Made by a program: the position numbers and the translations under genes. From NCBI GenBank assembly GCA_016191285.1, contig JACPPA010000012.1:186001-250000 (forward strand): DNA of 64,000 bases. Reading direction: 5' to 3'. The notes beneath the pieces were generated by a model. It made no database searches and had not been told where the DNA came from. It worked only from the letters and a program-made list of their open reading frames with translations. This document shows positions 17,009 through 42,074 of the stretch, piece by piece. Positions within the stretch are counted from its first letter, which is position 1. Every line of letters starts with the position of its first letter. Origin of the DNA: Gammaproteobacteria bacterium. GTDB lineage: Bacteria > Pseudomonadota > Gammaproteobacteria > Ga0077536.

Positions 17009-18175
17009 TCACGCGGGGAACAGCCTGACGAGGTTCTTCGCGATCAGAATGCGCTGAATCTCATTGGTCCCTTCGCCGATACACATCAGCGGCGCATCGC
17101 GGTAGTAGCGTTCGATATCGAACTCCGCGGAATAGCCATAGCCACCGTGGATCCGCATCGCTTCCTGTGCGCAATACATCGCGGCTTCGGAAGCAAAGAG
17201 CTTGGCCATGCCGGCTTCCATGTCACAACGCTCACCGCGCTCGTATTTCTCGGCCGCTTGATTCGTTAGCAACCGTGCCGCTTCAACGCGCGTCGCCATC
17301 TCCCCTAACTTAAGTTGAATCGCCTGGTGCTCGCAGATGGGTTTGCCGAAGGTTCGACGCTGCTGCGAATAGCGAATGGAATCCTTCAATGCCGCATTCG
17401 CAATCCCAACGCCGCGCGCCGCGACGTTGATGCGACCGAGCTCCAGCCCGCCGACCGCATGGTGAAAGCCATGGCCTTCTTCGCCACCGAGAATGCGTTC
17501 TGCCGGAATGCGGAAATCGCTGAAGCTCAACCCCACACTTTCGACCGCGCGATAACCAAGCTTTTTTAATTTGCGATCGACGGTGAAACCCGGCCCCTTT
17601 TCGGCGAGGAACATCGTCATGCCCTTATGCGCCGGCTTGGCCGCGGGATCGGTTTTCGTCAGCACCGCATAGAGACTTCCATAGAGACCGTTGGTGATCC
17701 ACATTTTCGAGCCGTTCAGCACATAGTCGCTGCCGTCGCGCTTGGCCACGGTTTTGATCCCTTGGAGATCGGTTCCTGCATCCGGTTCGGTCAAGCAAAG
17801 CGCACCGCGTAATTCGCCGGTCGCGAGCCGCGGTAAGAATTGCTCGCGTTGGGCTTGCGTGCCAAAGCGATAAATCAAAGTCCCTAGCATCAAATGCGAA
17901 TTGATGATGCCGCCAATGCTCATGAACACTTCGGCGATGGCGGTGACGATTTTCGCGTAGGTCGTCGGCGGTAACCCTAACCCGCCGTAGTCCTGCGAAA
18001 TCGTCAATCCAAACAATCCGAGCTCTTTCATCTGCTCGACCAGATCAAACGGATATTCATCCGCCTGTTCATATTTTTTGGTGACCGGTCGAACTTCTTT
18101 CTCGAGCCAATTCGTAATGGTGTCGAGAATTTGGACTTCGTCTTCGCGACTAAACATGTCGGGCGCTGTGGCCAT
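17009..18175 (-). CDS. Acyl-CoA dehydrogenase
   Basis: LCLTEPDAGTDLQGIKTVAKRDGSDYVLNGSKMWITNG, IHGGYGYSAEFDIERYYRDAPLMCIGEGTNEIQRILIA. Confidence 0.95.
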   Translation of the reverse strand: MATAPDMFSREDEVQILDTITNWLEKEVRPVTKKYEQADEYPFDLVEQMKELGLFGLTISQDYGGLGLPPTTYAKIVTAIAEVFMSIGGIINSHLMLGTLIYRFGTQAQREQFLPRLATGELRGALCLTEPDAGTDLQGIKTVAKRDGSDYVLNGSKMWITNGLYGSLYAVLTKTDPAAKPAHKGMTMFLAEKGPGFTVDRKLKKLGYRAVESVGLSFSDFRIPAERILGGEEGHGFHHAVGGLELGRINVAARGVGIANAALKDSIRYSQQRRTFGKPICEHQAIQLKLGEMATRVEAARLLTNQAAEKYERGERCDMEAGMAKLFASEAAMYCAQEAMRIHGGYGYSAEFDIERYYRDAPLMCIGEGTNEIQRILIAKNLVRLFPA

Positions 18176-18228
18176 TACCGTCTCCTGACTATTGTTTCGA
18201 TCATTTCCGCCGTTCCAAACTCATCAAG

Positions 18229-18362
18229 GCTGGTGGTCGCAGGATTCGTCAGCGCGCCTCACGCGCAAGCGAGCCAGGGATGGTTTAGCGCAGCGCGTGC
18301 GGTAGCGGAGCGATTCAGGAAGAATCGCGAAGCGGTAGCTGACGAATCCTGCGACCACCAGC
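18229..18362. repeat. Arm-variable stem-loop element, copy A
   Basis: Perfect 25-bp inverted arms GCTGGTGGTCGCAGGATTCGTCAGC / GCTGACGAATCCTGCGACCACCAGC around a core shared with 25182-25269. Confidence 0.9.
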
Positions 18363-18399
18363 CCGCGGCACTGCGTCAAACAGCCAAACCTACACGCTG

Positions 18400-19164
18400 T
18401 TAAATCGCGGTTAACCCACCATCGACCGGAATCACCGCACCGGTCATATACGAGGCTTCATCCGAGGCCAGAAACAGCGCGACATTCACGATCTCGATGG
18501 GTTCGGCCAACCGATTCATCAAATGCATGGCGGCCATTTGTTTAAACGCGCCGGCCTTGTCCTCGACATCTTTCAAATAACGCCGCGGCATATCGGTGTC
18601 GACGACACCTGGACAAATCGCATTCACACGCACGCCCTGCGCCGCCAAATCCGTCGCCATCGAGCGCGCGAGCTGCGCCAAACCCCCTTTGGACGCGCCG
18701 TACGCCGCCATCGTCGGAAATCCCACAATACCGCCGACCGAGGAATTATGAATGATCGAACCACCGCCACGCTTGACCATTTCGCGCGCCACGAGCTGGC
18801 TCAAGAGAAACGGCGCACGCAAATTCACCGCCAATAACTCGTCGAGTTCCTCCGCGGTGGTTTCTAAAAACGGTTTGCCGACCATCAGGCCGTGATTGTT
18901 GAACAGCACATCGACTCCACCGAAGACCCTGACCGCGGCTTTTACGATTTTCTCGAGGACCTTGCCGTCCCTGACATCACCGCCAACATAGGCAACATCC
19001 GCTGGGCGTTTGGCGATAAGTTTAGCAACTTCGCCGTGCGGCTTCTTGGCGAGATCGCTCGCCAACACGCGTGCCCCTTCGGCCACAAAGCGCGCGACGG
19101 CGACTTGCCCCTGACCGCCTAAGGCGCCGGTAATGATGGCTACTTTCTGGTTTAATCGGCCCAT
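18400..19164 (-). CDS. SDR family oxidoreductase
   Basis: KVAIITGALGGQGQVAVARF, NNHGLMVG, YGASKGGLAQLARSMATDLAAQGVRVNAICPG. Confidence 0.93.
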   Translation of the reverse strand: MGRLNQKVAIITGALGGQGQVAVARFVAEGARVLASDLAKKPHGEVAKLIAKRPADVAYVGGDVRDGKVLEKIVKAAVRVFGGVDVLFNNHGLMVGKPFLETTAEELDELLAVNLRAPFLLSQLVAREMVKRGGGSIIHNSSVGGIVGFPTMAAYGASKGGLAQLARSMATDLAAQGVRVNAICPGVVDTDMPRRYLKDVEDKAGAFKQMAAMHLMNRLAEPIEIVNVALFLASDEASYMTGAVIPVDGGLTAI

Positions 19165-25156: not shown

Positions 25157-25294
25157 AGCCGATGGTTGGGGTATTCGGCGGCTACCGCTCCGCGATTCGT
25201 CCTTGAATCGCTCCGCTACCACGCGCGCTGCGCTATTCCAGTCCCTGGATCGCTTGCGCGCGAGGCGCGCCGCCGAATACCCCAACCATCGGCT
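25157..25294. repeat. Arm-variable stem-loop element, copy B (core reverse-complementary to copy A)
   Basis: 25-bp perfect arms AGCCGATGGTTGGGGTATTCGGCGG / CCGCCGAATACCCCAACCATCGGCT, unrelated to the arms of copy A. Confidence 0.9.
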
Positions 25295-25390
25295 CGAAGC
25301 GTTTGTGGCACCCGCCCCCGCGTAAATTGAAACTACGTAGAGGCGCTTCTTCGGATTCCGAATTGCGCCACGGACTTTCGAGGAGCGGCG

Positions 25391-25478
25391 GACCTACCTG
25401 TTGAAAACCGTCGGCCGCAGGGACGCGGCCGTCGAGCGTCCAAGGACGGATTCACAGCGTGTTTTCAACAGGTAGGTC
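25391..25478. repeat. Arm-variable stem-loop element, related type C
   Basis: 18-bp perfect arms GACCTACCTGTTGAAAAC / GTTTTCAACAGGTAGGTC; inner hairpin CGGCCGC AGGGAC GCGGCCG. Confidence 0.8.
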
Positions 25479-25669
25479 TGTCGCGCCCACACGCTTAAGT
25501 CACATCGCAATTCGGGGCCGGGTTGCGTCCTCCGTTGGATAGGAGCTCACGGCATTATTTGCTACGATTGGCTGACCTCGGCAGAGGTCTCGGCGCGACG
25601 CAAGGTTCGCGTCCCAGCAGAACGTTATCGAAATAACCGAACCGGGCGTAAGCCTGACCCTGGAGTCCT

Positions 25670-29525: not shown

Positions 29526-29583
29526 GGACGCGCGCGGCGCGACCAAGATCGGACTCAGATCTCTGCGATGATGATTCACATAC

Positions 29584-29740
29584 CCCTCACCCCGGCCCTC
29601 TCCCGCAAGGGGAGAGGGGGAAATGAGGTGTGCCCAATCTTTCCCCTCACCCCGGCCCTCCCGCAAGGGGAGAGGGGGGAAATTCGAGGTGCCCATCTTT
29701 CCCCTCTCCCCTTGCGGGAGAGGGTTAGGGTGAGGGGCAT
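29584..29740. repeat. CCCTCACCCCGGCCCTCTCCCGCAAGGGGAGAGGG-type intergenic repeats, three copies
   Basis: Two direct copies and one inverted (CCCCTCTCCCCTTGCGGGAGAGGGTTAGGGTGAGGG). Confidence 0.85.
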
Positions 29741-41988: not shown

Positions 41989-42074
41989 GTGGGAGCCGCT
42001 TTAGCGGCGAATCTTTCAAGGTTGGCAGCGGCATCTAAGCCGCCGAAGATTCGCGGATAAATCCGCTCCCACAG
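41989..42074. repeat. REP-like palindrome
   Basis: TGTGGGAGCCGCTTTAGCGGCGAATCTT...AAGATTCGCGGATAAATCCGCTCCCACA. Confidence 0.8.

Follow-up and report, generated by a model that had tools for sequence, protein, structure and literature searches.

The 136 bp palindrome at positions 18228-18363 of the window (the whole 64,000-nucleotide stretch of DNA analyzed here), designated copy A, very probably belongs to a new family of mobile palindromes that is restricted to one genus and resembles the YPAL elements. On balance we favor a fuller proposal, in which this inserted, MITE-like palindrome has a folded GGA strand and its hairpin loops would serve as sites for proteins of the CsrA/RsmA family. 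The features of the window that bear on these points are as follows.

17009-18175, minus strand: acyl-CoA dehydrogenase-like open reading frame, left neighbor of copy A, named from its sequence; syntenic in the congeners G001, G002 and G004 without the element
18228-18253, plus strand: left arm of copy A, 26 nt, perfect complement of 18338-18363
18254-18337, plus strand (the GGA strand): type-A core of copy A, the 84 nt between the arms; seven genome copies including one decayed; 104.7 bits with model R2
18274-18283, plus strand: apical hairpin 1 of copy A, CCA-GGGA-TGG, with the CAGGGATG loop motif, from folds and copy comparison
18310-18328, plus strand: hairpin 2 of copy A, GCGATTC-AGGAA-GAATCGC; its stem covaries in comparison with the congener G003
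18338-18363, plus strand: right arm of copy A, 26 nt, complementary to the left arm
18400-19164, minus strand: SDR oxidoreductase-like open reading frame, right neighbor of copy A, named from its sequence; syntenic in G001, G002 and G004 without the element
25157-25294, minus strand (the GGA strand): copy B, a second type-A element, with arms at 25157-25182 and 25269-25294; 103.2 bits with R2
25382-25487, plus strand: type-2 (YPAL/RU-2-family) element, with 27-nt arms (89%) around CGTCGGCCGC-AGGGAC-GCGGCCGTCGAGC-GTCC-AAGGACGG-ATTCACAGCGT; 103.5 bits with model R1

The arms of copy A are 100% complementary, as the first-pass annotation had claimed, although they are 26 bp rather than 25 bp long; the arms of copy B are also 26 bp and perfectly paired. 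The z-scores of the RNA folds, relative to dinucleotide shuffles, were -11.9 for copy A and -10.4 for copy B. The folds of both copies and of the element at 25382 are very stable on either strand, and in all three the GGA strand gives a more stable fold than its complement. The usual loops are ATGGAT and AGGGAT within C...G, that is CANGGANG, which is the RsmE consensus. The AGGAA loop of hairpin 2 in copy A is atypical and has decayed from this consensus.

The type-A core is present in seven copies in this 5.1-Mb genome, of which six are intact and one (L007) is without the left arm. Among the congeners, about 15 copies were found in G003, one weak match in G002, and none in G001, G004 and G005; when a sample of 387 genomes of the class was searched with the type-A pattern, this genome alone matched. 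The acyl-CoA dehydrogenase-like and SDR-like genes flanking copy A are adjacent without the element in G001, G002 and G004, with an intergene of about 45 bp or less (estimated from alignment) compared to 224 bp here. Since three congeners keep the flanking gene pair without the element, copy A is an insertion. A target-site duplication of 3-26 bp was sought, and the orthologous intergenes are too diverged for the exact insertion borders to be placed. Copies A and B are non-coding, intergenic and repeated, as is expected of YPAL-like mobile palindromes, and the site of copy A is empty in relatives. One type-A copy of G003 (L038:1-147) is split by a palindromic insertion (ATTCAATGGGGTCGGAGTCC...) resembling another small mobile palindrome. 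Public MAG contigs CAMATU01 (L039-L043), labeled Klebsiella pneumoniae, have the elements of G003 at the same places, and the label looks wrong.

Across the six intact copies in this genome, 97.8% of the pairings at 54 pairs are formed. Changes on both sides were seen at 20 pairs and in 31 cells, compared to 6.4 and 7.6 in shuffles, and none of 500 shuffles was as high. The arms of copies A and B had been described as entirely different, which proved incorrect: in register they agree at 17 of 26 positions (hand count), and GGTnGTTGGG..ATTCG..GGC is common to the arms of all type-A copies in this genome. This shared pattern indicates that the arms are homologous and have diverged with compensated changes. 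The type-A arms of G003 are paired too, and by eye are unlike those of this genome. Covariation of the core hairpins, as reported earlier, is real overall, but the hairpin-2 stems of copies A and B are identical (GCGATTC/GAATCGC) and differ only from their covarying counterparts in G003 (GCAATTC/GAATTGC and GCATTTC/GAAATGC). Arms that are rewritten and still paired fit the suggestion of an element that may rebuild its arms.

The element at 25382-25487 fits the YPAL/RU-2 core, CGT-hairpin-CGAGC-hairpin-TT(C/T)AC.GCGT. Its R1 score compares to 69.5 bits for a copy on a Yersinia plasmid, which the type-2 model R1 matched with E = 1e-14, and the 168-nt RU-2/YPAL sequence published for Y. pestis holds CGTCCGCGCCAAGGATGGCGCGGCTCGAGCCTACATGGATGTATTTACGGCGT, which is the type-2 core. 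A search of the window with R1 produced no match at copy A or copy B, and by eye these two have only CGAGC and one CANGGANG hairpin in common with the type-2 core. If this element is what the first-pass annotation called copy C, its different core places it in a different family. The R1 match at 41989-42072 was rejected as a type-2 element because it consists of two REPs in inverted orientation; the REP GTGGGAGC..GCGAAT forms inverted pairs there and at 1029-1094, and 29580-29740 contains a CCCTCTCCCGCAAGGGGAGAGGG repeat that occurs in inverted pairs and is numerous in this genome.

Three type-2 copies in this genome have cores that are about 95% alike and arms that are about 61% identical yet paired. 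The pattern of the type-2 second hairpin was found in many genomes of the class, with up to 57 copies, and a reversed-pattern control gave near zero; the pattern matched 56 of 387 genomes of the class, a count that includes some single non-canonical matches. Outside the Gammaproteobacteria our sample contained single non-canonical matches only, and multi-copy families were confined to the Gammaproteobacteria. None were found in E. coli genomes, and phages had a weak partial match at most. One type-2 element (L236:577-676) is located on plasmid pDCA of the alphaproteobacterium Ancylobacter, with an ISAs1 transposase on one side and a haloalkane dehalogenase gene on the other. Six type-2 elements of G594 lie in a 227-bp tandem array (L317:2288-3652), each unit with a TTGTAGGAGCGGCTTCAGCCGCG REP, and their GGA strand is antisense to both flanking genes.

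Covariation within type 2 was measured on 26 gap-free elements picked for well-paired arms, with hairpin 2, but not hairpin 1, being part of the search pattern. Pairing was seen in 98.4% of 884 cells, and 357 cells were double-changed, compared to 103 in shuffles. All 24 arm pairs were changed on both sides somewhere among the 26 elements, and the C-G pairs closing the loops of both hairpins were invariant (26/26). The unpaired linkers (CGAGC and TTCAC.GCG) are conserved as strongly as the loops, which suggests that some further factor reads the core too.

Long-armed inverted repeats were scanned for over 1.63 Mb of the 5.1-Mb genome. At least one CANGGANG hairpin was present in 15 of 51 such repeats, compared to 62 of 4000 random segments (1.6%), and two were present in seven of the 51, compared to 0% of the 4,000 random segments. 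This enrichment persisted in loci that had not been picked for known copies (5/38, p = 4e-4). The rest of the 51 were mostly REP pairs, CCCTCTCCC and CGTCATTCCGG repeats, and isolated inverted repeats. Two additional types of element were recognized.

Type E, five copies: L258:2492-2620, L245:88-215, L250:14847-14972, L275:10274-10405 and L276:15296-15426
Type D, single element: L293:2772-2913 (the same as L003:1647-1788); its arms measure 26-31 bp, one hairpin is GCGAAC-CAGGGATG-GTTCGC, and a type-A copy lies 36 bp away

The hairpins of type E are GTGCGGCGC-AGG..-GCGCCGCAC and GCCGGCC-AGGGA-GGCCGGC, and its sites are chiefly between convergent genes. Types E and D share a plan of long arms and two GGA hairpins, with CGAGC preceding one of them. 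There are four element families in this genome, which differ in their cores and have the two-GGA-hairpin plan in common. At four places (window 25157-25487, L258, L276 and L293) elements from different GGA families are no more than about 100 bp apart; the combinations are copy B and the YPAL-type element, types A and E (two places), and types A and D, and the GGA strands are opposite in three of the four. Most copies of types A and D have a GCAC motif after the right arm (for example window 18366-18374, and about 1465 in L003), so that the element may reach a few bases past the arm.

Many copies with diverse yet paired arms, covarying stems and retained GGA loops were what the first-pass annotation had looked to a genome-wide search for, and this is what was found. 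The GGA of hairpin 1, a hairpin that was not part of the selection, is retained in 65 of 72 elements, and over 20 different stem sequences occur among them. All four bases are used at the N of CANGGANG among the 57 copies of one genome, which agrees with CsrA specificity. Isolated arm mismatches on the GGA strand comprised 33 G·U and 10 A·C (p = 6e-4, two-sided, with G·U scored neutrally). The excess of G·U points to the GGA strand as the one that folds, either as RNA or as single-stranded DNA, and we are confident that this strand does fold. The earlier idea of selection for a folded RNA is thereby upheld as to the fold and the covarying stems, but single-stranded DNA would also fit them.

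Two GGA motifs in hairpin loops and the CANGGANG consensus give the copies, at the sequence level, the character of CsrA/RsmA sites, and the loops fit the published consensus for CsrA, RUACARGGAUGU, as cited in PMC7937890. This genome contains csrA, and binding itself is plausible. The csrA gene was found in 20 of 23 element-rich and 21 of 22 other genomes, and since it is near-universal in the sample this co-occurrence is uninformative; G243, a 98%-complete assembly with type-2 elements, gave no csrA match. In P. putida, RsmA, RsmE and RsmI bind in vivo to a "long palindromic region downstream PP_3547" and to ISPpu8-flanking intergenic regions (PMC7937890). This Rsm-bound palindromic RNA, a region known here by description rather than by sequence, is by analogy a suggestive pointer to CsrA-family binding. 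We predict that CsrA-family proteins would probably bind GGA-strand RNA of copy A; that such binding is the function under selection is a more doubtful proposition.

The orientation of the elements was counted in tandem contexts, using codon-model gene calls. Over all families and genomes the GGA strand was sense in 21 cases and antisense in 38, and in this genome it was sense in four and antisense in four. In both copy A and copy B the GGA strand is antisense to both neighbors. This absence of a sense preference indicates that CsrA sites carried on mRNA are not selected for, and the overall counts argue against a decoy in neighboring transcripts, but not against CsrA binding to a separately made RNA.

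In the explanation that we prefer, copy A is a small, inserted, non-autonomous and geneless mobile element, MITE-like and of the YPAL type, whose GGA strand is under pressure to adopt a fold in which a long stem encloses two hairpins displaying CANGGANG loops. The arms may be generic self-complementary ends, free in sequence, whose match is maintained by selection for the fold and probably also through palindrome-templated copying between the two arms. The two loops would most likely be the recognized part, as CsrA/RsmA-family sites, and the GGA-strand RNA would bind a CsrA dimer. Binding would accompany transcription in the GGA direction, whether by readthrough in the minority of sense copies, at convergent gene ends, or in a separate transcript, and the proposal includes no standing decoy in neighboring mRNAs. 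More tentatively, YPAL, type A and the others may form a superfamily of mobile palindromes of the Gammaproteobacteria in which paired CsrA-binding hairpins are the conserved, selected part, and in which CsrA/Rsm proteins would interact with mobile DNA, the elements serving as a dispersed sponge for CsrA, or CsrA controlling their mobility or transcript.

It is unlikely that the hairpins are instead read as single-stranded DNA by a mobilizing enzyme (IS200/IS605- or RAYT-like) with an incidental likeness to CsrA sites. The mobility of the elements, seen in empty sites in congeners and in the insertion history of YPAL (PMC2229807), is consistent with such an enzyme, as is the conservation of the linkers, and a strand asymmetry without gene-orientation preference would suit a strand-specific DNA intermediate. 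However, the insertion strand is unbiased between replichores (57 copies, p = 0.55), and the CGTC-tagged repeats, among which related elements were filed, are without a known transposase according to Di Nocera 2013 (PMC3733652). Nor would reading as DNA predict loops fitting CANGGANG, with a free N, in several unrelated cores. Somewhat less probable is a plain hairpin element that acts in RNA at the ends of genes by modulating termination or the stability of mRNA, as has been proposed for YPAL and REPs, with a loop sequence that is inherited and not selected. Folds that are very stable on both strands, intergenic sites, and the proposal of such an action for YPAL (PMC2229807) are in line with it, but it does not explain why loops and closing pairs stay invariant amid rewritten neighboring pairs, or why these loops recur in different cores. 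The first-pass reading of an RNA decoy or UTR module titrating CsrA from neighboring mRNAs could draw on the paired CANGGANG hairpins, the presence of csrA and the Rsm-bound palindromic intergenic RNAs of P. putida, but it predicts the GGA strand in the neighboring mRNA and is very unlikely given the antisense placement of copies A and B, the overall orientation counts and the likewise antisense array of G594.

The preferred explanation would provide a candidate ligand, CsrA/Rsm, for YPAL and some "CGTC REP" dimers, bacterial repeats that are old and unexplained. The YPAL class is widened from Yersinia to many Gammaproteobacteria. Near-identical cores with rewritten, perfectly paired arms in one genome make the question of arm matching directly testable, and if CsrA binds, estimates of global CsrA titration and existing Rsm pull-down data must count these elements.

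Several known systems resemble these elements in part. Integron attC sites have conserved ends and a variable middle, and were rejected as an identity because here it is the core that is conserved. The Rfam search found no family at gathering score, and the permissive matches were to miRNA hairpin models and, weakly, to Ysr224 and RsmW. The TwoAYGGAY RNA, an Rfam entry reportedly going back to Weinberg 2010, is said to have two hairpins with GGA loops; the likeness is one of two GGA-loop hairpins, by name, and there was no Rfam match to it even at a permissive E-value. CsrA-sequestering sRNAs of the CsrB/RsmZ type likewise carry two or more hairpins per molecule whose loops are CANGGANG-like, but the elements described here are dispersed mobile copies with no sense preference and no dedicated sRNA locus. 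GTAG/CGTC-tagged REPs, which are palindromes of 20-40 bp with an end tag, were rejected for copy A, with its 136 bp and 26-bp arms; type-2 cores mostly begin with CGTC but have two hairpins inside arms, and copies A and B are without the CGTC layout of the Di Nocera repeats. Di Nocera 2013 (PMC3733652) describes CGTC-1 REP heterodimers "within 41 bp palindromic sequences" in Halothiobacillus neapolitanus. As described there, these are like type 2 in having a palindrome dimer enclosed by longer arms and "attcacg" preceding the right one; they are from one species and were viewed as REPs inserted in palindromes, and arm covariation and GGA loops are absent from the parts of the account consulted. 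A further comparison is with YPAL/RU-2, the Yersinia palindromic sequences of about 168 bp (De Gregorio 2006, Delihas 2007), for which the two accounts searched mention no CsrA link. Copies A and B are similarly small, non-coding, intergenic and mobile with long inverted arms, and they differ in having another core, unmatched by R1, and in being restricted to a genus.
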